A stretch of 64,000 bases of DNA from positions 42,793,835-42,857,834 of the forward strand of contig CP136066.1 of the NCBI GenBank assembly GCA_032622095.1, read 5' to 3'. The notes below the pieces were generated by a model. The model saw only the letters and a list, made by a program, of their open reading frames with translations, was not told the origin of the DNA and made no database searches. Position numbers and translations under genes: made by a program. The stretch comes from Siphonodentalium dalli (taxonomy: Eukaryota > Mollusca > Scaphopoda > Gadilida > Siphonodentaliidae). Positions 8,433-56,100 of the stretch are shown in pieces. Within the stretch, counting starts at the first letter, position 1. Each line of letters starts with the position of its first letter.

Positions 8433-8664
8433 TGTGACCCGCCAAATCAAATCCAGACGGAAGGCGGGATTTTTTTACCCTGTGCCAATGCATTCTCTTA
8501 TATATGCGAGTCGACCATAGGTCGCCTCGCATATATAAGAGAATGCATTGGCCTAACAATTTTTTACAATTTTAATAATTTGTTCTTGTATTCTTTAACA
8601 ATTTTATAATTTCACCCATACAGAGCCCCAGACAAACATGAGCAGACGACACTCTTCTATGTGC

Positions 8665-8729
<65 letters not shown>

Positions 8730-8943
8730 GGGCTCCCTGCAGGGTAATGGATGTTTTTTTTATTTTATGTCCTAAAAATTGTAAGAAACATTTATTTAAA
8801 AAACATGATAAAAAATTGTTAGGCCAATGCGTTCTCTTATATATGCGAGGCGACCTATGGTCGACTCGCATATATAAGAGAATGCATTGGCACAGGGTAA
8901 AAAAAATCCCGACTTCCGACTGGATTTGATATGGCGGGTCACA
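8433..8943. mobile_element. MITE family 2 (TGTGACCCGCC ends), copy 1
   Basis: The ends TGTGACCCGCCAAATC and its inverse GATATGGCGGGTCACA enclose, from outside in, a TCGGGATT-type inverted segment and the same two 69-bp hairpins found in family 1 (8484-8552 and 8823-8891). The longer core holds GAGCCCCAGACAAACATGAG, a long (AT)n tract (8668-8722) and CCTGCAGGG. Confidence 0.8.
8668..8722. repeat. (AT)n microsatellite inside MITE family 2
   Basis: Uninterrupted alternating A/T of about 55 bp. The other copies have only a short ATATATAG here, so this is a local expansion. Confidence 0.95.
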
Positions 8944-8949
8944 AATATT

Positions 8950-10480: not shown

Positions 10481-10484
10481 TTAA

Positions 10485-10876
10485 CCCTTTACCCAACAAA
10501 CCGGCCAAAAACGGCCAAATAAAGCTGCAACAGCCTAAATTATCTTGGGTCTGTCTCAATAAAACCATACAAATATGGATATCATTGGAACCGGCTCATT
10601 GACCACATTGTGATGGTTACAGTTATGCCCTGTGCCAATGCATTCTCTTATATATGCGAGTCGACCATAGGTCGCCTCGCATATATAAGAGAATGCATTG
10701 GCCTAAAAAAAATATTTTTTAAACACTTTTTACCATTTTTTCTTACATTCTTTAACAATTTTATAATTTTTAATGTATTAAGCCAATGCATTCTCTTATA
10801 TATGCGAGGCGACCTATGGTCGACTCGCATATATAAGAGAATGCATTGGCACAGGGCCGTTCTGTTGGGTAAAGGG
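10485..10876 (+). mobile_element. MITE family 1 (piggyBac-like ends, TTAA), copy 1
   Basis: Left end CCCTTTACCCAACA follows TTAA (10481-10484); right end TGTTGGGTAAAGGG is followed by TTAT, a one-base decay of TTAA. Inside: a unique arm (AACCGGCC...GTGATGGTTACAG), then the shared cassette of two 69-bp hairpins (10634-10702, 10782-10850) around an A/T-rich spacer. No coding sequence. TTAA target and C/T-rich terminal bases are the features of piggyBac-type transposons; mobilisation by such a transposase is inferred. Confidence 0.8.
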
Positions 10877-11371
10877 TTATAAAGACAGTATAATGTGCAT
10901 GTTATTTTGATTTAGTACGGTACTTTTCGGAGCCCTTTGCCACCCTTATGTCACTACTATAGAGCGTGTGTTTTACATATCACAGTAGGTTCATAAAATT
11001 TCCCGAGGCCTTTATATAATTTTGTCTGTTCCTATACATCACAGAAAATGTATTTATCAACAATATTAAGTTGTTTTGCCCCAAGCCATTATCATTTTAA
11101 TGTGTGTGCAGTTTGCAAGTGAACGTTTCTTCAAAGGCGGCAAAGTTATAGTACGAAACCCTAAAAACACTATAATATTCGGGCGTTGAATGCGGTTATG
11201 CGAGTTAGTGTTTTATCAGATAATGTTAATAATGTGGGTCATATAAAATCGTTCCGTATTGGAGACGATACCGTAACCGAGAACTATCACCTATGTTCGT
11301 TAACATCCAGTTCTGATTAAAATAATACTCAGACGAACCACGTACGTGGATCGTCTTGAGTATGATCTTAA

Positions 11372-11758
11372 CCCTTTACCCAACAGAAGGGCCCTGTGCC
11401 AATGCATTCTCTTATATATGCGAGTCGACCATAGGTCGCCTCGCATATATAAGAGAATGCATTGGCTTAACACATTAAAAATTATAAAATTGTTAAAGAA
11501 TGTAAGACAAAATGGTAAAAAGTGTTAAAAAAAGACTTAGGCCAATGCATTCTCTTATATATGCGAGGCGACCTATGGTCGACTCGCATATATAAGAGAA
11601 TGCATTGGCACAGGGCATAACTGTAACTATCACAATGTGGTCAAGGAGCCGGTTCCAATGATATCCATATTTGTATGGTTCTATTGAGACAGACCGAAGA
11701 TATTTTAGGCTGTTGAAGATTTATTTGGCCGGTTTTGGCCGGTTTGTTGGGTAAAGGG
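11372..11758 (-). mobile_element. MITE family 1, copy 2, inverted
   Basis: It is 387 bp with perfect TTAA on both sides (11368-11371 and 11759-11762). Hairpins lie at 11398-11466 and 11541-11609; the unique arm is on the right, so the copy is opposite in direction to copy 1. The copy is very similar to 38706-39097. Confidence 0.85.
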
Positions 11759-11906
11759 TTAATCAGAAGTTCACATCGTGCCATCGGGAAGTTTGCATGT
11801 ATGACATATTATGTAGGTATTTCGTAATAGAAAATCACATGGCGCCAAACTATGAACGGCAACATGCGTATAAAATGCTAACGCTGGTGCAGCATTACAT
11901 ATTATG

Positions 11907-12690
11907 TGCCAGTGATTTTCTTATAAAAATGCGAGTCATGGCTTACAAGGTCAATGTAAATATTGTTAGGCCAATGTAATATCTTATATATATGCGAGGC
12001 TCCCTACACGTATATGAGGGATTCACTCTCTATATATATTGTTTATGCTTAAATCATGTCACATCCAAAAAAGTAATCCGACTTATGAAAACTAAAAACT
12101 CTTTTTAATGACGGAAATAAAACAAACATGTTGAAATTAGCCAGATTTGCATCGGAAATAGTTACCAAAGCAGCCATTTAAATTGGTTTAAATTGAATCT
12201 ACATGCATGCCCTCCTGTACGTATATAAACATGGTCCCAGTGCAGCTTTCCCAGCTAAGTGTGTATTTAATTTAATTATATTTCTCTGTTATTATCTCGA
12301 ATTTGTTATCTTTTTTGTGTGAGTTTCCCTACTTTATTTATCTCTATTATTTTTAAACTTTTGTTGACATTATATAATTATGATGCTATATATGTCCACC
12401 TCCAGTTCCACATATTAGTGGACGGAGAAAATAAAGAATTGAATTGAATTGGAAAAGACGAACTGGACATCGCCCAATGACTGCTCTAACAGATAAATAG
12501 AATCTGGACATCGCCCGCTGACTACATTCTCTTAGATTTGCGAGGCGACATAATAAATAATAAATTATGCTCGCATATATAAGAGAATGCTCTGGCTTAC
12601 AAGGTGAAGGTAAATATTGTTATGCCAATGCATTCTCTTATATATGCGAGGCGACCTATGCTCTCATATATAAGAGAATGCACTGGGTTT
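11907..12690. repeat. Cluster of degenerate cassette hairpins
   Basis: Three damaged relatives of the 69-bp hairpin lie here: 11907-12015 (GCCAGTGATTTTC...), about 12518-12597 (loop replaced by AATAAATAATAAATTA) and 12621-12690 (shortened centre). Copies share CTTACAAGGT(C/G)AA between them, suggesting that the degenerate hairpins belong to an older variant of the element. A LINE-like 3' tail lies between at 12380-12455. Confidence 0.55.
12380..12455 (+). mobile_element. LINE-like 3' end with (GAATT)n tail
   Basis: AATAAAGAATTGAATTGAATTGG at the end of an otherwise unremarkable 200-bp stretch; the same AATAAAGAATTGAATTG ending stands at 6475-6495, and GAATTGAATTG at 13822. These are typical 3' tails of truncated retrotransposons. 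Confidence 0.45.
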
Positions 12691-13318: not shown

Positions 13319-13778
13319 TGTGACCCGCCATATCAAATCCAGTCGTAAGTCGGGATTTGTTTTACCCTGTGCCAATGCATTCTCTTATATATGCGAGTCG
13401 ACCATAGGTCGCCTCGCATATATAAGAGAATGCATTGGCCTAACAATTTTTTATCACTTTTTTAAAATAAATGTTTCTTACATTTTTTAGGACATAAAAT
13501 AAAAAAACATCCATTACCCTGCAGGGAGCCCCACACATATATAGAAGCATATAGAAGAGTGTCGTCTGCTCATGTTTGTCTGGGGCTCTGTATGGGTGAA
13601 ATTATAAAATTGTTAAAGAATACAAGAAAAAATTATTAAAATTGTAAAACATTATTAGGCCAATGCATTCTCTTATATATGCGAGGCGACCTATGGTCGA
13701 CTCGCATATATAAGAGAATGCATTGGCACGGGGTAAAAAAATCCCGACTTACGACTGGATTTGATATGGCGTGTCACA
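13319..13778. mobile_element. MITE family 2, copy 2
   Basis: Ends TGTGACCC and GTGTCACA are flanked by TA on both sides, as expected of a Tc1/mariner-type target, though flanking AT-richness weakens this. Hairpins lie at 13371-13439 and 13659-13727. The core carries the GGGGCTC inverted pair and CCTGCAGGG as in copy 1, without the expanded AT tract. Confidence 0.8.
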
Positions 13779-14085: not shown

Positions 14086-14482
14086 GAATGAGGTCCCCAG
14101 AGGGTGAATTTAGTGATGCTATCCCACAACAGCAGGCTAGCACCACCAAATTCACCCTCTGGTGACCTCATTCTGCTTAGGCCTCATCTTCTCTGGAAGG
14201 TTTCTTTATTATCAAATTTCTATAGAAACCTCTTCACATAGATTAAATTTCTATTTTAGTTCTGTTTCTTTGTATCTCCAAATTGGCAGACGACGCCTTG
14301 CACAATCGAAGTTCCCAATGGGTGTACATCACAATATTCACAATTTGAGAACTTCAATGTGGGTCTATGTCTCCCATAACATATGATGCCATGCAGAATG
14401 AGGTCAACAGAGGGTGAATTTGGTGATGATAGCCCGCTGTGCGGGATAGCATAACAAAATTCACCATATGTGGACCTCATTC
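14086..14482. mobile_element. Double-hairpin element, GAATGAGG family, copy II
   Basis: Hairpins lie at 14086-14173 and 14396-14482, with a spacer of about 220 bp similar to that of copy I (starts CTGCTTAGGC and has a TTCTATTTTAGTTCTG block). The outer word TGCAAATGACAG is kept on the right only. Confidence 0.7.
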
Positions 14483-17596: not shown

Positions 17597-17599
17597 GAA

Positions 17600-19030: not shown

Positions 19031-19037
19031 CATTTAA

Positions 19038-19293
19038 CCCTTTACCCAACAAACCAGCCAAAAACGGCCAAATAAAGCAGCAACAGCCTAAATGATCTTG
19101 GGTCTGTCTCAATAAAACCATACACATATGGATATCATTGGAACCGGCTCATTGACCACATTGTGATGGTTATAGTTATGCCCTGTGCCAATGCATTCTC
19201 TTATATATGCGAGTCGACCATAGGTCGCCTCGCATATATAAGAGAATGCATTGGCCTAAACAAAAATCTTTTTTTAACACTTTTTACCATTTG
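19038..19293 (+). mobile_element. MITE family 1, copy 3, 3'-truncated
   Basis: It begins after TTAA (19034-19037) with the family's left end and unique arm and one complete hairpin (19187-19255), then stops in the spacer after TTTTTACCATTT. The second hairpin and right end are absent. Confidence 0.8.
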
Positions 19294-19582
19294 CACTAAT
19301 ATGAAGCCTATAGTCGCGAAATTCAGATACTACATAATAGGTTGAGACTATACTAATTGCAAATATTCAAATCCCAACACCGAATGGCGCCAATAGCCAC
19401 GATTCAACCGTACTGATCATGTGAATAATTGGAAGACAACGACCTCTATTTGTGGATTTGTGAGAGGAACGTCTCCGAGAGAAACTCCAATTTTGAGTCC
19501 CTAGGCGATGCTTGCGATGTCAAAACTGATATACCTCATATAGTTGATCCCAAACAGAGCCTTCTACAACGAATTCCGTTAA

Positions 19583-20038
19583 CCCTTTACCCAACAGAAC
19601 GGCCCTGTGCCAATGCATTCTCTTATATATGCGAGTCGACCATAGGTCGCCTCGCATATATAAGAGAATGCATTGGCTTAACACACATTAAAAATGATAC
19701 AATTGTCAAAGAATGTAGAAAAATATTATAAAAATTGTTAAAAAATGTAAGAAAAAATTATAAAATTGTTAAAGAATGTAAGAAAAAATGGTAAAAAGTG
19801 TTAAAAAAGATATTTTTAGTCTAATGCATTCTCTTATATATGCGAGGCGACCTATGGTCGACTCGCATATATAAGAGAATGCATTGGCACAGGGCATAAC
19901 TATAACCATCACAATGTGGTCAATGAACCGGTTCCAATGATATCCATATTTGTATGGTGTTATTGAGACAGACCGAAGATATTTTAGGCTGTTGAAGCTT
20001 TATTTTGGGCGTTTTTGGCCGTTTTGTTGGGTAAAGGG
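19583..20038 (-). mobile_element. MITE family 1, copy 4
   Basis: It is 456 bp with TTAA at 19579-19582 and 20039-20042. Hairpins are at 19609-19677 and 19820-19888; the latter starts TCTAATGC instead of GCCAATGC. The spacer is lengthened by reiterated A/T-rich blocks containing AAAGAATGTA. Confidence 0.85.
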
Positions 20039-20852
20039 TTAAGATTTCCAGGTAAAGATCCCTCCAAAAACGAACGCAAATATTTTCAAAGCGATATTCA
20101 GAAGTACACAACGAGAACGAGAACCAAACGTTTTGCGAACCGAGTCTATTTATCTCGTCGTAGAAGCCCGATCTCCACAAGAGGGAACCAGTCATACTTC
20201 ATTTCTGACTGCTGTTTTCTGAATCTCGCCCCTGATCAAGACTAGTGTTCCTGCTAATTTGTCTTTTTCGCTGTGTTCAGATAATCTGAACATATCAAGG
20301 AAAAGCCATTATGCGTATAAAACATTCAGAAACATAGTTATTGCGAAATATTTTTTTAAATAGTTGTATTAATTGTTAAAAATCGACTATAGGCAAGATG
20401 GTTATTCACGTCGTTTTAGAAACACCAGCTCAGGCATTATTGTATTTTTCATAAACACTGGTTTTTTCTCAAATCGCTCGGATTAGCAAAAAACCGCGAA
20501 AATGATAACTTTAGAAGGACCACCAGCATCATATAATATTAGGAGGGCCCTCTTGACCAGGGGTAAATATAGCCCGGGGGTTTTTCAGCATCACTGGCAA
20601 ACCCACCCCCCAAGTAATTTTTTTTCGATGTGTTTTGACATGAATTCCCTCACTAAAATCTTATCCAGAATGGAGATGTAGTGTGGTATGTGTCTTGTTG
20701 ACGATTTCCATATGCTATACTGAGCAAAATGACAGACAATTAGAACTCGTGTGTTGATTTGACCGATGTGTGTCATGCGTGTTGTTGTCCATTTGTGTTG
20801 ATAAAATAATCGACGAATCAAAGCACAACATTGCGCGAAATAGTTTTTTATT

Positions 20853-28537: not shown

Positions 28538-28540
28538 CAG

Positions 28541-35264: not shown

Positions 35265-38200
35265 CTGTAAATTGAAAATAAATACGTGAAAATATCAAAT
35301 AAGCAGCAACTCTATATTAAAATCAATAAATGAAGATGAACTGAAGTAACTCTATATAGCACATGTATTATAATTATAAGCCACATTCAAATTGTGAATC
35401 TGATTGGTAAACACTTTTAAATCTACGCTCCTAAATCACCAACTATAAACAAAATCAAGCCTCAAAAATTTAAAACTGTTGGCTGACTCCTTTGCATTTT
35501 TTTGCACGTATATTTGGTAACCAAGTTGTCGAAAAATAAAATAAATTATTTGCCAATCGGTTTCAAACAAGTATACCATAAAAATTGTAAACTCAGACGG
35601 TCACATGTAAATGGAGAGAGCGAAGAACTAAAGAACAGAATGACATTTTGTAAACGGTATTATATAATTATTTCTCCAATAAAAACATAAAAAAGCAAAA
35701 ACAAAAACATGCTGTTTGTGAACCATCAGTCGATGCTTCTTTTTATCCGGGCAAACCGAAAAAAAATTGTAAGATAATAACTACATATATCGTCCAATCA
35801 GCCAGACTCCAGAGCAATATAGAATAAGGTGGTACAAGAACGACTTAATTCAATCGACGAATTTCTGAAAATTAAAAAAGCCTTTTGCACCTGCCTATTG
35901 TTATGACCTCCCTAAGATCTATATTTGATCTATCTGTGGCGCAAATAAATTTAGCAAAATTATGTCAACGTCGAGATCAAGACAACGTTACCAGCAACTG
36001 ATAAATTACAGTAACTATTCTTAGACAACATCATATATATTGCCGCTAGCGGTACGAAAGTAGGCCAGAAACCCACACGTACGATGCATATGTCAGGAAC
36101 GTGTGCGCCAGTCAAATGTATGCATAAATGTAAGTTTGTTTGGTCACCCTTCCCCTACACGGCCCATAGATAAATGTTTCAATGCACATTTGTATGTAAA
36201 ATGACCGCATATATATGTATGTATTTGGGTAATAAACATTATATATATATATATATATCATTGTTTCTACAATAAAAACATAAAAAACATGCTGTACCTC
36301 TGTCGACGGTTTCACTTTGCGAACCATGAGACGATGCTTCTTTTTGGAGCGAGATGCGGGAGCAATGGGCGCGATTGGATTCCCATCCTCGTCAACATCG
36401 ATATTTCCAGTATCTTCGTCAATATATTCATCATCGTTTTTGGCATATTCGTCCCGGTTCGTTCTGTTCCGGTATTTGCATTGACGATACCAGAAACACA
36501 CAGAGAACCCGAGGAAGATCCCCAAGACTGCCCCATACGCCGCTGCTAAACCGATTTTCAATCCGATGTTATCCGAAATGGATCTGTAATTTGCAGAAAC
36601 GGCTGAAAATAGAGAGTAAAATCACGATTCAGGGGTTATCATTAGTATCATCAGGTGTAGTCCAAGTCTTCTCGTACTAAAATCAGCTAAGATATTGCGA
36701 TGGTGAGATGCTGTTTTTACAGCATCTCGCCATCCCAACATCTTAGCTGATTTTAGTACGAGAAGACTTGGACTACATCAGGGGCAGTATAGAGGCCACT
36801 GTTAAAAGTAGCCCAGCCACCCCCCCCCAATTTCTATTCTAAATGTTCCCAATTCATAAAGATGATTTGTATGAGAATTCCAAATATTAACTTAAATGTT
36901 TGTCAACTAGAAGTGGCCAGTTGATGAATTAGTACAAACACTAGTCTACTCAACTATATTTCATTCCTCACTGACAGCTAGAATTATGACAATGCATTGA
37001 TTTAAACCTTTCACATTTTTATTGAAAATTTTACTTCATACTATTGTTGTGTGTCATTTATTCTCAATGGTATAGACCCATTTCCCTTTCTTAATCAGGG
37101 TATGATAATCACTTCCATACAATTCACAGTGCAAATTGTGATAGCTTTCGCTTGAATAATATCTATGAAACATGTGAATTCATTGCTTCATCATGAGGGA
37201 GGCATAACTAGATTCTTAGTTTACGAAGGACATGAGCTCATGTGGCCAATGCTGCCTCGTCTCCATTATCCGATGGTTTTTCAGGAATAGGATGCTTTTT
37301 TAAGAGGGCTTTTTCGCAACAACAAAAATCAGATATAGAACCATGCGACTACGTCAACATTTGAGGTACTACGTCATCAATATATGCGCACGTTTTAATT
37401 ATAACGGTGATGTCATAAGATTCATAACGGGTAGAATATCAATTCCTTTGATTTGTGTAATAACACATCATGTATATAAATGCAGAGGCTCAGGTAATTA
37501 GTTTTGTTGCATCAAGTTGATGCCGACAATTCATTGGCACAGGATTTTCGCAAATTTTCAGGAGGCTCCAGTCATGTATAGGACATAGGTGTTCAGAAAA
37601 GACACAAACTTAACTATAAAAGTAAATCAGTGGCATAAAATGGTTTTAACCATAGCTTCTAGGATGAATTGAGATATCTGCGAGGGTGACAGCATTACCG
37701 TGCAGCCCCACCATAATTGATTGATTGATTGATAAATTGCACAAAACGTATTTGACATAAAGAAAAACTGATATCTGAAGTATTTGGTCACAGACCGGAT
37801 CTAAATCAACATAATTATATACACTATGTACACACATTCGTCCATTATTTTTCATTCCATATACGTAGACATATGCGTGATTATATATAGCCAGTAATCA
37901 GTAATGCCCGATGTTTGCTCATAACAATTGATATAAAGAAAAACTAATATCTGAAGTATTTGGTCACAAACTAGACCAAGTCTTCTCGGTCCACAACAGC
38001 TTGGATATCGGCTGGGTGATGTTGTTTTGGACCGAGTCCCGCGCCGTTGCTCTTCTATAACGGACTTTTATTCAAAAGAGTACTACATATGTATACACGT
38101 GGAGCACGGGCATCCACGTAAGCCCCTGAATGTGATTAATAATCTGACATGTCCCGATTAATCTGTCTTCAAAATGATATTTCGTTTACCGTGATAGAAA

Positions 38201-41200
38201 AAGGTATAGTGCAGATATGGTCGTTTAATGTATTGTTTACATGCATTTTCTGATTGCTCGACAAATCAAAATTATCTTGAAACAATTTAAGGCTTTGTTT
38301 TCTTATAAATCTCGTTGATTTGACATTTAACGGACCTCTGATATATGCATGTTTTATATCATCATGCTTGGGAAAAGCTACTCTCTATGTTCATATACAC
38401 AAAGGTTCAATTTGACCTAATCCGATGACAAACAAGCAAGATAACTCCTGACCACGGTAAAGTCCGTTATAGAAGAGTAAAGGGGTGGGACTCGGTCCAA
38501 AACAGCATCAAACCAACCGATATCCAAACTCACAGACCGGATTGGGCGAGAAAACTCGGTCTACTCACAGACCGGATTTAAAATCAACATAGAACGGGGA
38601 TTCATTATAAGACAGATAGGTTATTGTAGTCCAGCAAGGGCTGCAACTCATGCAAGTTCCGTCGACCGACATATTCGAACTTAACATGATCTTTCTTGTG
38701 ATTAAACCTTTACCCAACAGAAGGGCCATGTGCCAATGCATTCTCTTATATATGCGAGTCGACCATAGGTCGCCTCGCATATATAAGAGAATGCATTGGC
38801 TTAACACATTAAAAATTATAAAATTGTTAAAGAATGTAAGAAAAAATGGTAAAAAGTGTTAAAAAAAGATTTTTTTTAGGCCAATGCATTCTCTTATATA
38901 TGCGAGGCGACCTATGGTCGACTCGCATATATAAGAGAATGCATTGGCACAGGGCATAACTGTAACTATCACAATGTGGTCAATTAGCCGGTTCCAATGA
39001 TATCCATATTTGTATGGTTCTATTGAGACAGACCGAAGATATTTTAGGCTGTTGAAGCTTTATTTGGCCGGTTTTGGCCGGTTTGTTGGGTAAAGGGTTA
39101 AACCAAATACCAAGTCGATCGAAAAACTAATATTATAGTTATCAACCGGGAAAAAAACGGACAGACCACTGGACGTACGGACAAACTGTTTACATAATTC
39201 GACCCAACGTTGGCCAATTTTGTTGGAATTGTGTACCTCATACTATTGTTGATTGACAACATTTTGCATAAATCCAGCCAAAAAAGCAACCAAATCGCTC
39301 ACAAAGTCACTGAAATCGTGAAATTTCGAGTTGGGACCTTCACCCATGCACAGTGAAGTACATTATTAAGAAACATATAATAACAAAGAAATATGTTTCC
39401 TGTGTTATTTTTTCGATTTTATAAGGTTAAAAACGTTCCCAGGTTTTGTACTGGTGGAATATGATCTCTACGGGTGTTAGCCAGAGTAGAGATTCATGGC
39501 ACGATCTCACGTAAGCTATGAACGGAGTAGTATGTTGATGGATAAGAGTAATGTAAATAGAATACAAATTGCGAAATTGAGTACAATTTTGATCGGTTGT
39601 TGGAGCTGAAACGAGCTATATTTCAGTTTGAATACCAACATAAGAACGTAATTTCTTCATCGATATTCAACGCGTAGCAAAAAATTTGTATCCTGTTAGT
39701 GATTTAAGCATGCCCATTTGGGCCATTTTAAGTTGGGCTATAATTCTATCTTAATGGATTTGTTAGATGTGAACACACGTTTTGGGTTGAATGGTGTATC
39801 AGGAAATAAAGTTTGATATATGTTGGTGGAGGCCGAACTAAGCTGTGGTACAGAATAAAATGGTCAGGGCCATAACTTCGAAAGTTTATCGACGAATGAA
39901 TCTTTTTAGTCAACATATCGCGCAAATAGGCTCATAAATCAACGTATACTAATCATATATGTTCATAGTAAACCTATACTAATCATATAGGTTCATAATA
40001 AACCTATACTAATCATATAGGTTCATAATCGACCTATACTAATAATATAGGTGCATAATCGACCTATACTAATCATATAGGTTCATAATCGACCTATACT
40101 AATCATATAGGTTCATAATCGACCTATACTAATCATATAGGTTCATAATCAACCTATACTAATCATATAGGTTCATAATCGACCTATACTAATCATATAT
40201 GTTCATATAGTCGACGTATACTAATCATATATGTGCATAATCGACCTATACTAATAATATAGGTTCATAATCGACCTATACTAATCATATAGGTTCATAA
40301 TCAACCTATACTAATCATATAGGTTCATAATCGACCTATACTAATCATATAGGTTCATATAGTCGACGTATACTAATCATATAGGTGCATAATCGACATA
40401 TACTAATAATATAGGTTCATAATCGACCTATACTAATCATATAGGTTCATAATCAACCTATACTAATCATATAGGTTCATAATCGAGCTATACTAATCAT
40501 ATAGGTTCATATAGTCGACCTATACTAATCATATATGTGCATAATCGACCTATACTAATACTATAGGTTCATAATCGACCTATACTAATCATATAGGTTC
40601 ATAATCGACATATACTAATCATATAGGTTCATAATCGACCTATACTAATCATATAGGTTCATAATCAACCTATAATAATCATATATGTTCATAATCGACC
40701 TATACTAATAATATAGGTTCATATAGTCGACGTATACTAATCATATAGGTGCATAATCGACCTATACTAATCATATATGTTCATATAGTCGACCTATACT
40801 AATTATATAGGTTGATAGTCCGGAGACTGGGGTAAGTGGTGATATAGTGTCACATGGCTGCTGTTGCTGAATCTGCTGGTACGAATCCTGACCGGCTTTG
40901 TCAGAAGATAAGACATAAGGTGCTTACATATATGTGACCCGCCATATCAAATCCAGTCGTAAGTCGGGATTATTTTTACCCTGTGCCAATGCATTCTCGG
41001 GGAATAGGTCGCCTCGCATATATAAGAGAATGCATTAGCCTAACAATTTTTTATCATTTTTTTTAAATAAATGTTTCTTACAATTTTTAGGACATAAAAT
41101 AAAAAAACATCCATTACCCTGCAGGGAGCCCCACACATATATAGAAGTGTCGTCTGCTCATGTTTGTCTGGGGCTCTGTATGGGAGAAATTATAAAATTG

Positions 41201-42078
41201 TTAAAGAATACAAGAAAAAATTATTACTAATCATATAGGTTCATAATCAACCAATACTAATCATATAGGTTCATAATCAACCAATACTAATCATATAGGT
41301 TCATAATCAACCAATACTAATCATATAGGTTCATAATCGACCAATACTAATCATATAGGTTCATAATCAACCAATACTAATCATATAGGTTCATAATCCA
41401 CCTATACTAATCATATAGGTTCATATAGTCGACCTATACTAATCATATAGGTTCATAATCGACCATTACTAATCACATAGTAGCATATTGGATTATATGA
41501 TTCTGAAATTTCCGAGAGAATGTGATTTGGGGGGCTAACCCCGTGATGGTCGAATAGACCGAGAGGTCTATTCCTTCACCCCTCTGAAATAAGCCGAATG
41601 TGGACCTATATACGTTAACCGTTTAATGGCGTGGGCTACAGTAAAAACACATTTTAAAGATATTACATGTGGTAAGTCGTGATTTGGTTTATTCGTGTTA
41701 TTGTCCGCCCATAATGAACTTATAGCAAGTTATTATGAGTCGATAATGGCACTAAAACACTCTCATTTTCCGTTCATTATGAACTCAAAAGGAAGCGATT
41801 CTTTACGCCGATTATGAACCTAAAACAAGTACTATTATAAGCCGATAACGTACTTATTTTCTGGAGAACAGGCTGTTATATTGCTCAGTGGATGTTTACA
41901 TCTATACATAGATACACAAAGGCCTATAACCGAAGTAAAAATATTTTTTTCCAAAATATTTGAGGTTTCTAGCTATTACATAACACTCACCTGCATGTAC
42001 ATAGCCGGTAAAGGACGAAATCACAACGAAAAGTAGAAACACGACTGAATTTCCATCCATCTTGCGGAATTTCGCCAT
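34932..42078 (-). CDS. Three-exon gene for a small single-pass membrane protein (join of 42078-41991, 36602-36298, 35264-34932)
   Basis: Seen: three minus-strand open segments join in phase through consensus splice sites. Exon 1 (88 nt) ends one base into a codon at a GTGAGT donor; exon 2 (305 nt) starts after TTTTCAG with the two bases completing an Ala codon and ends on a codon boundary at a GTACAG donor; exon 3 (333 nt) starts after TTTACAG and runs to TGA. The sum is 726 nt, or 241 residues. Layout: signal peptide 1-29, outer segment of about 14 residues, membrane helix about 44-66 rich in small residues (GLAAAYGAVLG), acidic stretch 86-102 (DDEYIDEDTG), basic KKKHR 116-120, then a tail with PVQYV, PVEYV and PVQYV around 151-174. 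Inference: type I membrane protein with a long cytoplasmic tail; the tyrosine motifs could be phosphorylated or bind adaptors. I do not recognise a family. Extra in-phase exons in the 5.4-kb first intron cannot be excluded; they would lengthen the outer part. Confidence 0.72.
35680..35758 (-). pseudogene. Decayed partial copy of the 3' part of exon 2, inside intron 2
   Basis: Reading minus, 35755-35680 repeats the end of exon 2 plus the start of its downstream intron: codons matching K-K-H-R-L-M-V, a deletion removing the KVKPSTE segment and donor, then the intron motif around CAGCATG and a run matching the AATAAAAACATAAAA intron stretch near 36260-36285. The copy is broken and cannot splice as exon 2 does. 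It points to an old local duplication. Confidence 0.6.
36298..36602 (-). CDS. Exon 2: short outer segment, transmembrane helix, acidic and basic juxtamembrane region
   Basis: The acceptor is CTATTTTCAG just above 36602 and the donor is GAG/GTACAG below 36298. Residues 31-131 of the assembled protein lie here. The hydrophobic run from KIGLAAAYG to FSVCFW is followed by WYRQCKYRNRTNR, so positive-inside orientation puts the rest in the cytoplasm. Then come an Asp/Glu-rich patch, a Pro-Ile-Ala patch and KKKHR. Codon use is regular and GC is higher than in flanking intron DNA, supporting real coding sequence. Confidence 0.75.
36656..36777. repeat. 122-bp near-perfect palindrome in intron 1, 54 bp from exon 2
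   Basis: Arms of 58 bp run from TGTAGTCCAAG to a centre CTGTTTTTACAG and back to CTTGGACTACA, with about three mismatches. On the transcribed minus strand it lies just upstream of the exon 2 acceptor and would fold into a long hairpin in the pre-mRNA. Confidence 0.85.
37980..38545. mobile_element. Inverted-repeat element with arms of about 90 bp, in intron 1
   Basis: The left arm, about 37980-38070, holds CAAGTCTTCTCGGTCC, TTTTGGACCGAGTCCC and TCTTCTATAACGGACTT. The reverse complement of these last two blocks is at 38455-38545. The middle (about 390 bp) has no coding sequence. Short direct repeats lie outside: AGTATTTGGTCACA at about 37778 and 37957, and ACAGACCGGAT at about 37793 and 38567. 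No transposase is seen, so it is a non-autonomous element of unknown superfamily. Confidence 0.6.
38706..39097 (-). mobile_element. MITE family 1, copy 5, in intron 1 of the membrane-protein gene
   Basis: It is 392 bp, flanked by TTAA (38702-38705 and 39098-39101). The left end has ACCTTT for CCCTTT. Hairpins are at 38732-38800 and 38880-38948. Confidence 0.85.
39330..39500. repeat. Dispersed repeat with TACTGGTGGAATATGATCTC
   Basis: TCGAGTTGGGACCTTCAC...TTTTTTCGA..TTTATAA...CCAGGTTTTGTACTGGTGG recurs at 54075-54245, in parts at 59700-59760, 54718-54765 and, inverted, at 53820-53850, 58795-58850 and 62020-62065. It is a moderately old interspersed repeat without coding sequence; type unknown. 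Confidence 0.6.
39930..40817. repeat. 30-bp satellite (CCTATACTAATCATATAGG), first block
   Basis: The unit is CCTATACTAATCATATAGG followed by TTCATAATCGA, about 29 copies; every fourth to eighth unit is 32-33 bp with TTCATATAGTCGAC. Each unit has an inner dyad CCTATA/TATAGG. Lies in intron 1 of the membrane-protein gene. Confidence 0.95.
40933..41223. mobile_element. MITE family 2, copy 3, truncated and fused to satellite
   Basis: The left end TGTGACCCGCC, a first hairpin with an internal deletion (40985-41039) and the CCTGCAGGG core are present; the copy stops inside the spacer at AAAAATTATT, where the 30-bp satellite begins at once. The right hairpin and right end are missing. Confidence 0.75.
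41224..41490. repeat. 30-bp satellite, second block
   Basis: About nine units, mostly with CCAATACTAATC and ATAATCAA variants, distinct from the main variant of the first block. It begins directly at the broken end of MITE family 2 copy 3. Confidence 0.95.
41991..42078 (-). CDS. Exon 1: start codon and signal peptide
   Basis: The ATG is at 42078-42076; a second in-frame ATG follows six codons later at 42060-42058. After a basic start (MAKFRK) comes a hydrophobic core (VVFLLFVVISSF) and a small-residue end (YVHA), a typical secretory signal with likely cleavage after Ala29. The exon ends in GCAG followed by the donor GTGAGT. An in-frame codon upstream (TTG) is not a credible start. A TATA-like run lies only about 20 nt upstream of the ATG, too close to call as a promoter. 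Confidence 0.75.
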
Positions 42079-43096: not shown

Positions 43097-43302
43097 ATTT
43101 GAAAATACACATTGATATACAGACAAACTTGTTTATCGCGTAACTAGGACGTTAACGAACGTTACCTGACACAATTTGGCGCCAAATGAAAAATGGCGGG
43201 AAAACTTACAGGTTTGGCGCCAAATTTTGTCAGGTAACGTTCGTTAACGTCATAGTTACGCGATAAACAAGTTTGTCTGTATATCAATGTGTATTTTCAA
43301 AT
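43097..43302. repeat. 206-bp palindrome with TTTGGCGCC cores
   Basis: Arms of about 90 bp (43097-43187, 43212-43302) match almost perfectly, from ATTTGAAAATACACATTGAT inward through GTTTATCGCGTAACTA and AACGTTCGTTAACG-type blocks to TTTGGCGCCAAAT. The centre is about 24 bp. Confidence 0.9.
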
Positions 43303-43599
43303 AAGAGCATGCGCTGGCACATGATCTGTAATGCTGCACCAGTGCAGCTCCCGTCATGAACCTTGTGAGCCAATGCTTTATCTAATGCTGCACCAGCGCA
43401 GGGTTGAATTTTCCAACCAATATTCGATGAAAACGTATTAGTTTTAAAGAAACAGAGTCGGCAAATGTCATCCTTTCAGTCAAATATAAGACCGAATTGG
43501 CCCCGTAGTTGAGGGGGGATGGCGTCTGCAAACAAATTCCGTACACATCAGGCCTGAAAATAAAAATGCCATCCAACCAGGGATCCACCACCCCCTTCG

Positions 43600-46053: not shown

Positions 46054-46173
46054 GGTCACGCCCCGATATCAATGGATTGGCGAGCGGCATACCGGTTTAC
46101 GCTTTAACCATCCCACAATACAAAGACGTATAAACTACCATAACATCTGAAGACGAAAGAAATATGCCCTTAA

Positions 46174-46632
46174 CCCTTTCAGTGCCAGGTGCCGATCTCA
46201 TCGGCCCTAATTTACGGTCTGTAAAATCGGCCCTAAAAAAAATAAAAAAATATTTATTTTGTTTTAAAGATTTTTTTGGGTTGAATTTTTTTGGGGTATG
46301 CTTAAGCACGATATAGCGAATTTAAAAACAAACTGGATAAAACCTTAGGGGCATGTTATAACTCAAAATTATCATCAAGTATTCATAGTAATAATTTTGA
46401 TGCCCATGAAAAACGTAAGATACCCTGGCACTAAACCTACAAAATAAGTCTGCTAAAGAATATAAGAAAAAATTATTAAAATTGTAAAAAATTGTAAAAA
46501 ATTATAACAAATGATGAAGAATTGTTAGGCCAATGCATTCTCTTATATATGCGAGGCGACCTATGGTCGACTCGCATATATAAGAGAATGCATTGGCACA
46601 GGGTATATAGGTTGATACAAAAATCGGAAAGG
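46174..46632 (+). mobile_element. MITE family 3 (CCCTTTCAGTGCC ends, TTAA), copy 1
   Basis: TTAA (46170-46173) precedes CCCTTTCAGTGCC, and the right end GGAAAGGG is followed by TTAA (46633-46636). Inside are TCGGCCCTAATTTACGGTC, an A/T-rich part and one 69-bp hairpin (46529-46597) with half of the shared spacer. Only the right half of the cassette is present. Confidence 0.8.
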
Positions 46633-47296
46633 GTTAACCCATTCGAGCATTACAACAGCTTGGCTTCAAAAACAATGTCAAAACAGCTCTGTATTGTCAA
46701 TGGGGGTACCTAGCTAGGGTTCGATGGGTTCGGACTAACCCGCCCTGGGAAGGACAATGCTCTATTTTGCGACCACGCGCTGTCTATACTATGCACGTTA
46801 TCGCGACATACATGCCATTGTGTGTTACCAAAATTACATTAATGTCGGCCATATTCGAAAAATGTAGCAAATAATAATGGCGGTTTTATATAGCGCTCAG
46901 TAATATTGTTCTAAGATATTACACTATTAGCCCAGCCATTTGTACTAGCCAACCAATGAACCGGCTGCAGCCATGATATTGTGTACATGTTCTGCTATAG
47001 TTTGATCAGAACGAGATCTGATGCTCACCAGTATGACAAGCTGACTGGCACTGGTACTCGTTTAACGCACGAATGGTGCTAAGTCGACATAGTACGAGCG
47101 ACATTGCACGTCGCTCAAAGCGTCCAAGCCAATGTTGTGTGAATTCACAATAAACCACCGGCGGGCTGCGAACTCATTTCTCTGTGTTGACAGCGAAGAC
47201 ACGCTGAGCACTGGACCACCGTGCTCCACGTGACATATTTTCGATTTACAGAAGAGACAAAAACATTATCCGATTCAAGTTCGAAGCAGTTTGAGT

Positions 47297-47494: not shown

Positions 47495-47656
47495 TAATCC
47501 ACTTAGACAATAGTTGAATAGTATATATATATGTCGTACACGAACCACCCGTGCAATGGTTCGATTATAGCTTATGGGGGGGGGGATGAAAGTAATGATT
47601 CACAATGTTCGTCATCAAGAAGTCTGAACGTTTTGCTGTGGGAAGAGTCCGTCACC

Positions 47657-47752: not shown

Positions 47753-48583
47753 CAATTATGCCGTTGCAATCACACGACAACCCGCCTTAGGGAAACGCTG
47801 GATACACTAAGGTAGCGTCTATATATTGATCATGATGTACACCTAATATAATTTCTTTTTGGTCTGCTTAGAATCCTTAAAGGCACGTGCGGCCTTAATT
47901 GTCGAAAATATTCATATTTGTTCCAAACACCGTAAACAGAAAAACAGTAAAACGCATACAGTTCCGTTCATATATACCATGATCATCGCGTAAACAGCAT
48001 GTTATCATAAAGATCTACTATATTTTACCTAAGCAAGAGCCTGATTGTGTTACAGAAGACAACACAATGCTACTGGCTAATCACACACAAATGGCATAAA
48101 CGCTCTTTATTAGTTCCATATAAGGTATTCACCAACAAAGAACGCTCTTTATGTTTACCATCATAATATAAACAAACACCAGAAAAGTAACTTTTTACGC
48201 TTTTTTTTTACATAACAATGGTCAAACATATGACCATAACACACTGTTTATGCGATATTTCTTATTTGCATACGGACAAAGTCTATCTACATTTTGATGT
48301 TCTTTCTGTTTGTGGCGGGTTTTGACGGGTGGATATATTTTCACAGGATACCCACCGCCAAGACCAACCGTGTCTTTAAATAGGTCTGTCGCAGATTATT
48401 GTTTCCATTGTATTTTATTTTTTCCAATATTCGGAACAAACCCAAGAAAGTTCTAATTTGTATAGTGTATATACGTTTGCTCATGTACCATGTATAATGG
48501 CTGAGAATAATAAAGCATTACTTACTTACGCATTCATATGTTGTTTTTGTTCTTTGTACACAAAAAATTAAATGATATTTTAA

Positions 48584-49036
48584 CCCTTTACCCAACAAAA
48601 CGGCCAAAAACGCCCAAATAAAGCTTCAACAGCCTAAAATATCTTCGGTCTGTCTCAATAACATCATACATGGATATCATTGGAACCGGTTCATTGACCA
48701 CATTGTGATGGCTACAGTTATGCCCTGTGCCAATGCATTCTCTTATATGTGCGAGTCGACCATAGGTCGCCTCGCATATATAAGAGAATGCATTGGCCTA
48801 AAAAAATTCTTTTTTAACACTTTTTACCATTTTTTTCTTACATTCTTTAACAATTTAATAATTTTTTCTTACATTTTTTAACAATTTTTATAATATTTTT
48901 CTACATTCTTTGACAATTTTATCATTTTTAATATGTGTTAAGCCAATGCATTCTCTTATATATGCGAGGCGACCTATGGTCGACTCGCATATATAAAAGA
49001 ATGCATTGGCACAGGGCCGTTATGTTGGGTAAAGGG
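48584..49036 (+). mobile_element. MITE family 1, copy 6
   Basis: It is 453 bp with TTAA at 48580-48583 and 49037-49040. Hairpins are at 48729-48797 and 48942-49010, with the longer spacer type also seen in copy 4. Confidence 0.85.
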
Positions 49037-49071
49037 TTAACTGTTTATTGTCATCATCTATGTAATGGGTT

Positions 49072-49913: not shown

Positions 49914-50565
49914 TTAATGTATGCACTTAACGTTAATGAATTAATATTGATTTTATTTTGAATATTTTCTGATATAATGCGATGTTGATGGGACATTTAT
50001 TTGTTCTATTTTTTAGAACAGATCGTTCAGGCGATATCAGATGTCGATAGAGGGTATTATAGTGCTCCCATTGCTACGAACCGAACGTCAAATGTTTCGG
50101 ATTGATTGTATTGTTAGATTCTATATTTACACGCGATAATAAGTGTAATTAACGTTTATTGTGATTGTGATAACATTTCTGGTCTCTTTTAACAGTAACC
50201 ACTATTGTTTGTCAGCTAAACGATCACCCATGTGTATACCAGAAAATATTCGAAATATAATCAATATTAATCGATAGAAGCGTTTTCGGACAGGGGTCTT
50301 CGATTCATATCTAATATGTTATACCCGTGCATGAAACTATATAAAACGTGTTTAAAAGAGATAGACCATGATCATCCCTAACATTCATGACTCATCCGGG
50401 TGTTGTTAATGTTCTCCATACATGATAATTAAATTAAATTGCAATTATTTATTCTCATCGCCTATGCACAGAGAACGTGGTGAAGTGTTTACAGCGAAGT
50501 TTGAGAATATAACAGCGATGATATGATAGTGATAGTTGTTGTTGATGATGCTGGCGATCAAACTC

Positions 50566-50998
50566 CATGCAGGGTTTACCTCCCTTGATGATTCGGTAAG
50601 ACATGCAGGGTTTACCTCCCTTGATGACTCCATAAGACATGCAGGGTTTACCTCCCTTGATGATTCGGTAAGACATGCAGGGTTTACCTCCCTTGATGAC
50701 TCCATAAGACATGCAGGGTTTACCTCCCTTGATGACTCGGTAAGACATGCAGGGTTTACCTCCCTTGATGACTCCATAAGACATGCAGGGTTTACCTCCC
50801 TTGATGACTCGGTAAGACATGCAGGGTTTACATCCCTTGATGACTCCATAAGACATGCAGGGTTTACCTCCCTTGATGACTCGGTAAGACATGCAGGGTT
50901 TACCTCCCTTGATGACTCCGTAAGCCATTCAGGGTTTACCTCCCTTGATGACTTGGTAAGATATGCAGGGTTTACCTCCCTTGATGACTCGGTAAGAC
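50566..50998. repeat. Tandem array, 36-bp unit, 12 copies, arranged as dimers
   Basis: CATGCAGGGTTTACCTCCCT then TGATGACTCGGTAAGA; units alternate between a CGGTAAGA and a CCATAAGA ending over the first ten copies, so the true period is 72 bp there. Both strands have long frames (HAGFTSLDDSVR on plus, SREVNPACLTES on minus) because the period is divisible by three. A plus frame with ATG 50542 continues past the array to TAA at 51061; I see no splice or homology support for coding. Confidence 0.93.
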
Positions 50999-51589
50999 CG
51001 CTAGCTGCTACCGGCGACATTTCACCCACATTTGGTGGACGCGATATTAAAATATTTTACTAAGCGACAGAGCAATATGCTGCCCTTGTTAAGCACACAA
51101 AATAATATAATATAATTTGTATAAATTTTGGACCTAATGTTTTGAAAAGTCACATTAAAACCGAAGAACTATATTTCGAAACGGTGTGATTCGGTTCTCC
51201 GATTATTCTACCAACACAAAAGTATAAACGCACGTGTACGACATCGTCACAACTCGAACGACAAGTCACACACAAGAGTTCTAATTTGCTGTAAGTTTGT
51301 CGCTTGCGAAAATCGTCAACAAAACTACTGCTCTGATTTTCCATTCTGTCATCATGTTTTAGTGTGAGAATTGTTCTCAAAGTCAAAGCACATAGAAAAT
51401 TTGACGTTGGAGCGATCGGGTTTCGCCATTTTTGCTGGAAAATCCCATGCTATATATAGAAACATGGACTAGTACACAGCCGGTCAAAGAGTCAGAAAGG
51501 AAGCATGACTGTTGCGCTCTGGTAGAGATTGCCTGGCGATGTCGAGACAACAATGACGATGTTGATAATGATAGTATAATTATAAGATG

Positions 51590-51900
51590 ACGATGCTGCT
51601 GCTGCTGATGATGATGATGGTGATGATATCGACGGTAAAAATAACATGATGATGATGCTGATGATGATGGTGATGATGGTGATGATGATGATGATGATGA
51701 TGATGCTGATGATGGTGATGATGATGGTGATGATGATGCTGTTGATGATAATGATGACGATGACGATGATGATGATGCTGATGGTGATTATGATGATGGA
51801 TGATGATGATATGGTGATGATGAATAGTATGATAATGATGGTGATGATGATGACGATGACGGTAATGTTGATGATGAGGGTGACGACGATTACAATGTAA
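51590..51900. repeat. Impure (GAT)n trinucleotide microsatellite
   Basis: GATGATGATG with interspersed GGTGAT and GACGAT over about 300 bp; gives spurious Met-rich and His-rich frames. Confidence 0.95.
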
Positions 51901-52805
51901 TGACGACGATAATCGGGAGGTCGTTGTACACAAAACTGTCTTTTTTCTTCATTCATTCATTCATTATTTTGTACATACTCTATTTTCTCAATATCCCAGG
52001 GGGGTGGAATTTTTTTTTTCCGAGCACGTATGCCGGGGTGGGTGGGTGGTCGATAGGACCAACAAACAATTTTGTCCGCAACTCAAAAATATTTTTCTTG
52101 CAAGTCTTTTTGACTGTTTTTGCACATGAGTTTGGCTTAAAACACATCAATATGTCAATATTAACATAAATAACAAATTTCATGATGATCAGACAAACAG
52201 TATAGCCTGTAGCCCATGCTAATGGATTGAATTTTGAAATCCAAGATGGCTGCCATGTTTTTTTTGACCGAATGACCCCAAAATGACTTGTTCCTATTTA
52301 CATGTTAATGTTAACATCCATGACTAATAGTATGCACAGAAATTCATATACAGCTGTTTACAGTTAATTTCCCCCCGAAAATCTCTGTTTTAGTGTTAAA
52401 AGGGGGGGGGGTGGGTGTCCAAAAATGGTCGGAAAAAACTGCCGAAAACGGAAAACAATTTGGACGCGGGGGTGGGTGGGTCCCAACAAGGGTCGAAAGT
52501 CAAAAATCAGCCCACGTGCCTGCAAATGTTTTCCGACTCCCCCTGAATATCCTGTAATGTTAATGGATCAGAGAACAAATCATATCACACACACCATGGT
52601 GTATTCGATGCGGCAATCGATCAGGAGGTGTGCTCCTGGCTCTACCCCGTCCTCGAGTCTCGCTAAATGGGGAATAGAACCACGTGGTTACCAATCGATG
52701 CCCATGATCGGATACTTATAGCAAGACATTTATAAATTGAGTCTCTGTAATATCGCGACACATCGAAGTAACTTTAAGAGTCGTCCGCAAATGAATTAAT
52801 CAGGA

Positions 52806-53156
52806 ATGCTTTCCACTTCATCGTTGTCTTTCGTGTACTCCATGTTTTTACATTCATTCGAAATGTTTTTCATCATCCTTCTCTGTTTTGGAGACATTGT
52901 GCGCGTCGATGGTGAGCAGTTCACCAGTCTTGATGGGTGCGACACCGGTTCTAAGATGAACTTTGCCGTCAGCCTTGGAACCGTAGTGACCTCGTCCGAT
53001 ATACATTGTGCTGGTAGATGCTTGGCAACGCCTGGATGTTCGGCAGTAAATGTGATCAAAACGGGGACGAAATTTCTCTGTGAACTCGGCTCTGATAGCG
53101 CTATGGGAGATTGTTCAAAACTGACAAACGACGAAGACGCCAAATATTTTGAGAAG
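52806..53156 (+). CDS. Exon 1: signal peptide and PAN/Apple-like domain
   Basis: The hydrophobic segment MFFIILLCFG (residues 20-29) ending near VRVDG acts as the signal. ATG at 52806 or the in-frame ATG at 52863 may start translation; the second gives a more standard signal length. Cysteines fall at 45, 68, 72, 78, 92 and 103 counted from the first ATG, with H-C-x3-C-x5-C in the centre, the PAN/Apple arrangement. The exon ends after YFEK at the donor GTAAAA. Confidence 0.72.
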
Positions 53157-56100
53157 GTAAAACCGTTATTCTGGGTTGAATTTAGATCTAACCATTTAGT
53201 TACCTCGCCCAACACAATTCATGTGCTGATCAGTCTAATGCCCACATAACTGTAACATCCATTTACGTCATTTCTCAGTGTAGTTTTTGCGCTTGCGTGT
53301 GTCGCGGAATATCATCATTGGATATGGCTCACATACCTGGACATAGTGTATCTGTCATTTGCGGAATGCGGTCCATAGAGGGTGAATTTAGTGATGCTAC
53401 CCCACAGAGCGGACTAGCATCACTTAATTCACCATATGAGGATCTCATTCCGCATGACACCATCTTCTGTGAAGTATCTATATATAGTCTCAAATGAAAA
53501 TAATTGTGGTTACTTTATCCCCTTTTGTTCCGTTTCTATATCCCCCTAATTTACAGAAGTTAAACAACAGTATCGAGGTGTCATTTGCAGAATGAGGTCC
53601 CCAGAGGGTGAATTTAGTGACGCGCATAGCGGGATAGCATCACTAAATTCACCCTCTGGAGACCTTGATGGCTTAATTGAGTCTCAAAAGTATGCCCAAC
53701 CCTTTCTATACTTATTGGATTCTCACAGTCAGTTAAAAGTGAAGATAGCAATTGTCTATTATTGAATTGGAGTGATGTTAAGGTGCCAAAAACAGACGAC
53801 AGATAACTAAAAGTAGTAGAGATCATATTCCATCAGTACAAAACCTGGGAACTGTTTGAAGTTTTGACAATAAGCATAATAAAGTCGAATACATAATGCG
53901 GGTAATATTTTTCATAATAATGTACTTCACTATAGGTGAAGTTACCAACTCGAAATTGCATGATTTTCTGTAACTTTTGTGAGCCAATATCGCAATAAAC
54001 ATTGAATGTATTAACCAGGAGAAATCCCATATTTGTAAGCGACGCAAAGAAAAATCGCCCACAAAGTCACTTACATCGAGTAATTTCGAGTTGGGACCTT
54101 CACATGCAGTGAAATAGATTATTAAGGAACAGATAATAATTAACAAATATATTACCCACATTATTTTTTCGACTTTATAATGTTCCCTGTCATAACTATA
54201 AAAAATCCGAGATTTTTTACTGGTGGAATATGATCTCAACACCGAAATCTTGAGAGGCGAAGTTTAGCGAGCGCTATACCGGTATTGGTGACATTTCTAA
54301 TCAAAGTTCGGGGCATTATTAACCAAATTTCATCAGTTGGGTGTTGAGTGTTTTGCTTATCGCATACTCTTTACTTATTGTTTGGCGTTTGTTTACATAA
54401 AACAGAGTTTTATCATGGCAACAACATGCAATTTACGCGTTATGTATTATTGGTATAAGAACAAATTTTTTCTATAATATAATATTCTTTCTATTTATGG
54501 CGGTTTAACAGCAATACCCACCACCAACGCTTATCATATCTTTAAGTCAATAACATTTATATATATAGGGTAAAAAGGTTGAACACCAATACCACACCAT
54601 ACTATCTTAGGATTAGCATTTTCAATATTGATCCATAAATTTGGCTGTGTTGTCCACATACATGTATAGGTATGCACTTTATTCCGAAAATGGGAAGTTT
54701 CTCAGACTAACCCCCACCTGGGTGGAATATGATCTCTACGGGTGTAGCCAGAGTAGAGATTCATGAGATGACCTACTCATCAATGATGCTTTGGTTTTGA
54801 ACCGGATAAGTTATGTGCAATACGAGATCGCTGACCCCACGTCCCCCGAAAGAGGTGGCACTGGCTTTTTGTTAACCCTTTCAGTGCCAGGGGCCGATCT
54901 CATCGGCCCTAATTTACGGTCTGTAAAATCGGCCCTAAAATATATATATATATATTTTTTTATAGCTTTTTTTGGGTTGAATTTTTTTTAGGTATGTTTA
55001 AGCATGCTATAGCAAATTTAAAAACAAACTGGATAAAACCTTAGGGGCATGTTATAACTCAAAACTATCACCAATTATTCACAGTAATAATTTTGATGCC
55101 CATGAAAAACGTAAGATTCCCTGGCACTAAACCTACAAAATAAGTCTGTTAAAGAATATAAGAAAAAATTATTAAAATTGTAAAAAATAATAAAAAAAGA
55201 TGAAAAATTGTTAGGCCAATGCATTCTGTTATATATGCGAGGCGACCTATGGTCGACTCGCATATATAAGAGAATGCATTGGCACAGGGTTTATGGGTTG
55301 ATCCAAAAATAGGATCGGGCACTGAAAGGGTTAAAGAACAAAGAAGTCAAATTCAGGCAAATTATTGATTCCACCTTTACAATGAACCACACACCAAAAC
55401 CAAGAGAGTATTGATTCCACCTTTACAATGAACCACACACCAAAACCAAGAGAGTATTTATTCCACCTTTACAATGAACCACACACCAAAACCAAGAGAG
55501 TATTTATTCCACCTTTACAATGAACCACACACCAAAACCAAGAAAGTATTGATTCCACCTTTACAATGAACCACACACCAAAACCAAGAGAGTTTTGATT
55601 CCACCTTTACAATGAACCACACACCAAAACCAAGAGAGTATTGATTCCACCTTTACAATGAACCACACACCAAAACCAAGAGAGTATTTTGACAACAAAT
55701 AAGTTATGATTTCTAAGTCGAACAAAGGTGCATAACTCTATCAAAAAACATTGAATTCGATCTTGTCTGTACTTTTGAAATGTAAACTATTTAGCAAATA
55801 TCAAAAAATTCTGTTGAACATCTTTCAACTTATCATCCGAACAATTCAAAATTCATTGTTTCTAAGTTGAACTAGATGGGATAGTAGGAAAATATATTAT
55901 TTCATAATGCGATATGTTAATACATGATAATATAACTTAATTGATATTCATTCGAGTATTGTGTGGAGTGCCGTGGCCAATGACGGCCGTCTACCCGGCG
56001 CCCCTGAATGTGGCATAATTCCATCAATAATGGCTAAATAAATAATTTAACTATTTCACTTTCTTTTCAAATTAAATTAATATTTTAATTTGGATTTAGA

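Follow-up and report, generated by a model that had tools for sequence, protein, structure and literature searches.

The closest described relatives of the elements reported here are the CMITE families of Acropora corals (Wang et al. 2010, PMC2872659), a group of miniature inverted-repeat transposable elements (MITEs). As set out in the sections of that paper that describe them, CMITEs are TTAA-flanked and non-coding and have piggyBac-type ends that start with CCCTTT or CCCC; several families with different ends have in common an internal region whose conservation exceeds that of the ends. Tandem arrays of CMITEs occur, and a new element, CMITE-IN, arose around a CMITE. The elements are ~100 bp long with a 75-base core whose origin those sections leave open, and the question of what internal sequence contributes was raised there in 2010. 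Two other systems are relevant. In piggyBac and piggyBat, as the portions of PMC11707139 on end recognition have it, the transposase uses its C-terminal domains, in pairs, to bind palindromes immediately internal to the ends, and the pithovirus repeats M1 and M2 are characterized, in the part of PMC10664404 that treats them, as palindromic, MITE-like, co-occurring and clustered. Here we describe a cassette of two hairpins that occurs within several different sets of transposon ends in a 64,000-nt stretch of the Siphonodentalium dalli genome (the window; contig 6, positions 42,793,835-42,857,834, in an assembly of 2,226,750,531 bases and 9 contigs). The reading that we favor, with a probability of roughly 0.6, is that the hairpins form the core of a MITE of piggyBac type and that this core has moved into other end sets, where they would act as a subterminal palindrome aiding transposition in cis.

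The intact hairpin has a 27-pair stem, one T/C mismatch, five further pairs and an ATA loop. The two hairpins of one copy are oppositely oriented, and the cassette reads CCCTGTG-hairpin-A/T spacer-hairpin-CACAGGG. Matches to the 26-base half-hairpin CCAATGCATTCTCTTATATATGCGAG with ≤3 mismatches number 38 in the window, against 0.00 expected from 100 shuffles; there are 17 full 69-bp hairpins (one sequence accounts for 12 of them) and one damaged by an internal deletion, distributed over three end sets, which we call F1, F2 and F3. A shared hairpin cassette in three end sets, reported in an earlier note on this DNA, is thus confirmed and is not a chance resemblance. That note listed 18 near-identical hairpins, which is correct for the 17 full copies and not for the deleted one at 40985; it also placed the cassette in all three families, in F3 as a half, and the hairpin is indeed present in all three, but F3 does not seem to carry half of a broken cassette (see below). 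The copies in the window are:

8433..8943, minus strand: F2 element with symmetric arms and TGTGACCCGCC ends, hairpins at 8484 and 8823
10481..10880, minus strand: F1 element whose right-hand arm is the short one; it has hairpins at 10634 and 10782 and is flanked by TTAA (left) and TTAT (right)
11368..11762, plus strand: F1 element, hairpins at 11398 and 11541
13319..13778, plus strand: F2 element, hairpins at 13371 and 13659
19034..19290, minus strand: F1 half copy, hairpin at 19187
19579..20042, plus strand: F1 element with an extended A/T spacer between the hairpins at 19609 and 19820
38702..39101, plus strand: F1 element, hairpins at 38732 and 38880
40933..41226, plus strand: F2 copy that breaks off within a 30-bp tandem array; its hairpin, at 40985, is damaged
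46170..46637, plus strand: F3 element (TTAA + CCCTTTCAGTGCC), one hairpin at 46529
48580..49040, minus strand: F1 element with an extended A/T spacer between the hairpins at 48729 and 48942
54872..55334, plus strand: F3 element, one hairpin at 55215

The families agree within the cassette but little in the flanks beside it. Beyond CCCTG, five kinds of flank from different end sets have 2 to 9 of 20 bases in common; inside it, the hairpin consensus sequences of F1, F2 and F3 match at 69/69 positions, and a 39-base stretch of spacer differs at 8 (the F1 string in this comparison, labelled 38702, has its first match at 19769, which belongs to the F1 element at 19579). The distance from the end of the element to the start of the hairpin is 30 bases at the short end of F1, 51-52 in F2, 51 at the right end of F3 and about 50 in F4, a fourth family described below. 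The long-arm-side hairpin of F1 lies 153 bases from its end.

The six F1 copies (five complete, and the half at 19034) have ends TTAA + CCCTTTACCCAACA, with TTAA on both sides in four of the five complete ones, the copy at 10481 being the exception. F2 is represented by two complete copies (8433 and 13319) and the truncated one at 40933, and F3 by two copies with one hairpin apiece. Complete copies are short (F1 395-464 bp, F2 460-511 bp, F3 463-468 bp) and have inverted ends, as MITEs do, and no transposase-like frame was seen in the complete F1, F2 and F3 copies of the window. The target duplication typical of MITEs is found as TTAA in 4/5 complete F1 and 2/2 F3 copies. With the terminal motif CC[C/T]T as given in PMC2872659, the TTAA target places F1, F3 and F4 with piggyBac, some F4 ends being worn; each of the three starts with CCCTTT directly after TTAA. 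F2 has neither this target nor this motif in three complete copies, the two in the window and one in a sampled stretch (L031). Its flanks are AAA/AAT at 8433 and ATA/TAT at both 13319 and L031, so that the TA target earlier proposed for F2 is found on both sides in two of these copies and not at 8433. Read as GTGACC..GGTCAC, F2 is flanked in 3/3 copies by 4-base direct repeats (AAAT, ATAT, ATAT; n = 3, in A/T-rich DNA).

A single hairpin seems to be the native state of F3 rather than the remainder of a broken cassette, because two F3 elements elsewhere in the genome (L001 and L019) likewise have one hairpin. The sequence CCCTGGCACTAAACC of the long F3 copies was considered as a scar of a lost left hairpin and rejected: shorter F3 elements carry counterparts, L019 and L001 (the latter on the other strand) reading GGCCTTAAACCTACAAAATAAG and GGCCCTAAACCTACAAAATAAG at that place, and CCCTGGCACTAAACC therefore looks like F3's own sequence.

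The hairpin is extremely abundant. Exact half-hairpins number 137,002 on the forward and 137,078 on the reverse strand of the genome, 274,080 in all (control, 0 and 0); with two halves per hairpin, simple arithmetic gives ~137,000 hairpin equivalents. A 20-base piece of the hairpin had no match in prokaryote and virus contig collections. We also sampled 20 stretches of 10 kb (200 kb) at hand-picked round positions on all nine contigs. Thirty exact half-sites fell in 7 of the 20 stretches, with 24.6 expected from the genome count; the hairpins are therefore not confined to arrays. Classified by eye, the sample holds 19 hairpin-bearing elements in 10 of the 20 stretches: nine F1 (some partial or interrupted), one F2, no F3 and nine F4, one of these an intermediate. 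A copy number well above a hundred thousand, spread over several end sets, suggests that the hairpin itself helps elements to spread. On contig 1, at about 826-921 kb, hairpin matches recur at alternating intervals of ~5.0 and ~6.2 kb, like an array of ~11.2-kb units.

F4 is the likely native home of the cassette. It is TTAA-flanked with ends CCCTTTCATGA, starts with TTAACCCTTTCATGA, and has paired hairpins around a short spacer, CTTACAAGGTCAAGGTAAATATTGTTAG; in better copies the hairpin loop is GAGTCTCCCATAGGGAGCCTC. The bases ahead of TGTGCC are usually GATCA or GATCC on one side and GCGAAAACCC on the other. Among the paired-hairpin examples are L009, with TTAA on both sides, and L050 from 3889 onwards, with TTAA on the left. 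F4 copies are older and more degenerate than those of the other families, and intermediates link them to these. In one (L017) both ends are of the F4 type (TTTA on the left, TTAA on the right), the spacer is an A/T array and the loops read GTCGACC, as in F1-F3; another (L049, 7158-7622) resembles it but has lost the left hairpin, and its right end is worn. We infer from the worn state of its copies and from these intermediates that F4 was donor rather than recipient. The suggestion in the earlier note that a module has been swapped between families fits a likely native home in F4, intermediates and three further end sets. Four older relics in the window, which it had overlooked, belong to this family:

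11883..12005, plus strand: F4 relic, A-side end and two hairpin remnants around the spacer TTACAAGGTCAATGTAAATATTGTTAG
12525..12690, plus strand: two hairpins of F4 type around the short F4 spacer; the outer ends can no longer be recognised
37535..37575, minus strand: F4 relic, B-side end, TTTGCGAAAATCCTGTGCC on the minus strand
43301..43360, minus strand: F4 relic, A-side end adjoining a ~200-base palindrome

The palindrome directly adjoining the last relic spans 43097-43299 (about 200 bases, 90% self-complementary). On contig 1 (542082-545107, L023), an F4-type hairpin and spacer form a head-to-tail array with a 97-base period, which sits in a repeated unit of ~1.5 kb that also contains an F3 element.

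These findings can be accommodated in a simple scheme. F4 would donate its core to other elements, the transfer occurring by recombination or by template switching during gap repair. The chimeras would then be amplified by transposases that read the outer ends: piggyBac-like enzymes for F1, F3 and F4, possibly enzymes of another type for F2. The hairpin would serve as a subterminal palindromic cis site, either bound by a transposase dimer or acting via its shape; in every family it lies ~30-52 bases from at least one of the two ends, and lineages that retain it would amplify best. By analogy with piggyBac and piggyBat, a subterminal binding role is the most economical idea; in any case the part taken by the hairpin in transposition is deduced from sequence. 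The piggyBac transposase family (PF13843) has 128 match rows in the genome, some of them two per gene (116 scored of 649 candidates), and many are free of stops, with open frames of about 500-700 codons. A piggyBac-type partner would be recognised by ends CCCTTTACCCAACA, CCCTTTGAGTGCC or CCCTTTCATGA, and a partner of F2 by TGTGACCCGCC.

The uniformity of the hairpin could also be that of a passive passenger, homogenised by gene conversion between copies or by self-correction of the palindrome, and the pooled window data point that way: over F1, F2 and F3 together, private changes are scarcer in hairpins than in arms (7/1215 versus 52/1978, p = 9e-6; the count omits the misaligned columns of 40933 at its deletion and, in F3 only, gapped columns). 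That figure owes much to F2 and F3, where two to three copies cannot split private from subfamily change, and F1 alone in the window gives p = 0.10. A second set comprises 15 F1 copies, five from the window, seven from sampled stretches and three from one place on contig C1; it includes two copies with hairpin deletions (L003 and L014), but not the incomplete ones (window 19034, L047 and L049:9194), and columns with <8 letters are omitted. Here alleles present in at least two copies occur in 1/138 hairpin columns versus 16/183 arm columns (p = 0.0016), whereas private changes, still about half as frequent in hairpins (10/1993, 0.50%) as in arms (25/2693, 0.93%), do not differ significantly (p = 0.12). 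Gene conversion as read from the pooled count was dropped on the strength of this non-significant private trend. The hairpin deficit is clear in changes inherited from source copies and thus fits constraint on transposition-competent copies; the data favor such constraint over gene conversion. Self-correction, moreover, should remove the T/C mismatch, yet T28/C42 is invariant in 19 of 19 distinct hairpins, chosen to span F1-F4, while neighbouring pairs change on both sides. A passive hairpin thus seems unlikely. In the same 19 hairpins base pairing is kept in 97.0% of cells, and changes on both sides of a pair affect 12 cells in three pairs (shuffle mean 4.2; 0/500 as high), which is support and not proof, because related sequences can beat shuffles without structure. 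Such paired changes maintain the stem, as they would if the hairpin acted as RNA, its folded transcripts yielding small RNAs with a regulatory effect on the elements or the host, and folding is far stronger than in shuffles (z -13.2 for two intact hairpins, -4.7 and -8.3 for two worn ones, -23.7 for a whole F1 copy). The same covariation is, however, expected from a DNA palindrome, and Rfam at gathering score finds no match in the window; an RNA role is accordingly very unlikely.

The earlier note had also raised the possibility that the cassette, with its ends CCCTGTG..CACAGGG, is a mobile element in its own right that inserted into source copies of F1, F2 and F3. Its edges at CCCTG are sharp in all three families and resemble piggyBac-type CCCT ends, and TA adjoins the edge in F2 and in one of the two F3 copies; TA is absent in F1, however, and TA insertion was dropped as a mechanism, nor is there a target duplication around the cassette in F1. 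In F4 the bases ahead of TGTGCC on one side are usually not CCC, as noted above. At issue is whether cassettes occur without outer ends, a check proposed in that note. Searched with ≤3 changes over the window and the 200-kb sample, the edge pattern TGTGCCAATGCATTCTC gave 103 matches: 56 outer edges, 45 inner flanks and two unrelated. None of the 56 outer edges is free-standing; 29 belong to F1, 7 to F2, 2 to F3 and 18 to F4 (F1-F3 assigned mostly by fuzzy script match, F4 by flank reading). In the same DNA the F1 long arms accompany the cassette in 15/15 copies, one split by an insertion, and the F2 arms in 4/4. Genome-wide, TTAA precedes only 315 of the 152,002 exact edges CCCTGTGCCAATGCATTCTC (76,182 + 75,820). 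Fifteen of these 315 were inspected: eight are F2, one is F1 with an altered flank, one is F4, and five (L051, L054, L055, L060 and L061) have the edge CCCTGTGCC immediately after TTAA, and the DNA beyond it belongs to no known family. In these five the cassette edge could have been used as a transposon end, or they could be truncations; the other side of L051 is an F1 long arm, and that of L054 and L061 an F2 arm. A self-mobile cassette is thus unsupported, and we think it quite improbable. Finally, all families might be deletion derivatives of one long element, an origin that has in its favor the CCCTTT start after TTAA common to F1, F3 and F4, and a weak alignment of the F3 right arm with the F4 A-end (87 columns at 73.6%, about 39 of them hairpin), which makes distant kinship of these two end sets possible. 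On the other hand, at E 0.01 neither the F1 nor the F2 arms match arms of another family, CCCTTT is missing from the start of F2, and the distance from cassette to end differs among families. The single long parent that the earlier note named as grounds for giving up its interpretation is, as far as can be seen, not apparent, and we attach almost no credence to it.

Several observations weigh against our preferred reading of a transposed MITE core with a role in cis. No transposase gene with F1, F2, F3 or F4 ends is shown, the ends of the PF13843 matches not having been read. F2 lacks TTAA flanks, so that a purely piggyBac-specific site is disfavored, and the spread of single-hairpin F3, together with the 153 bases on the long side of F1, means that a hairpin pair near both ends is unneeded. 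Fifteen F1 copies underlie the allele test, five of them from the window and three from a single place on C1; with private changes in F1 hairpins at about half the arm rate, some homogenisation is possible at p = 0.12. The number of pairs changed on both sides, three, is not above that in shuffles (285/500). F2 is the chief difficulty for this reading: in it, either another transposase profits from the same palindrome, or the effect is one of shape, or the hairpin is a passenger. A bolder version of the preferred reading, in which the hairpin is a portable, selected cis module for transposition or amplification that serves transposases of more than one superfamily, at the TTAA ends of F1, F3 and F4 as well as at the non-TTAA ends of F2, is possible but in our view doubtful. 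If it were true, an element that acquires the hairpin would become highly successful, and a cross-superfamily module would be new.

The window contains other repeats as well. Tandem arrays are abundant (4466-6008, 28537-30012 onward, 39935-41572, 50494-51105, 55313-55735 and 60443-61700), with periods of 69, 28-30, 30, 36, 46 and about 45 bases, and one of them holds the truncated F2 copy at 40933. A further repeat family, GCAGAATGAGGTCCCCAGAGGGTGAATTTAGTGATGC, found at 45802-46053 and also at 336-466, 14393-14502 and 53333-53463, includes a foldback with 122-base arms that are 94% complementary. An open frame of 245 codons at 6690-7424 has seven similar proteins in the databases (E 7e-20 to 3e-6), of which one contains a reverse transcriptase domain, and is probably a fragment of a long interspersed nuclear element. 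Two pieces resembling protein domains, GIY-YIG (E 0.0027) and PAN (E 0.0025), score below the curated cut-offs and would be suggestive of animal DNA.

Comparison with described systems places the cassette nearest to CMITEs, the sole close precedent that we found in the open-access literature among chimeric, nested or hairpin MITEs; the statement in the earlier note that no element of this organisation had been described was therefore too strong. A query with a 60-base CMITE core, run against the window only, gave no significant match (best E 0.29). The likeness is one of organisation: different ends around one conserved internal region, as in the F1-F4 cassette, and, on the published description, TTAA flanks, CCCTTT-type ends and tandem arrays, as in the TTAA families here. 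The likeness to piggyBac and piggyBat is likewise one of arrangement: in the portions of PMC11707139 cited above, a terminal motif after TTAA is followed by subterminal palindromes, which are much shorter (14 bp for P3LE). Pithovirus M1 and M2 are comparable in that they too are MITE-like palindromes, found with one another and in clusters; each has its own 47-54 bp inverted repeats, with TA as the suggested duplication, and the relevant part of PMC10664404 describes no single core across end sets. It is an old question why some MITEs reach huge copy numbers and whether internal sequence matters. In this genome a likely donor, intermediates and three recipient end sets are visible together, and, given enough copies, weighing shared against private changes can separate selection on source copies from homogenisation. 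What was known is thus a CMITE-type core in differing TTAA ends, with no hairpin pair in the description of CMITEs cited here. What is added is the anatomy of a hairpin pair, a likely donor with intermediates, a carrier, F2, whose ends are not of the TTAA type, a copy number reflected in 274,080 exact half-hairpins, and the shared-versus-private comparison itself.

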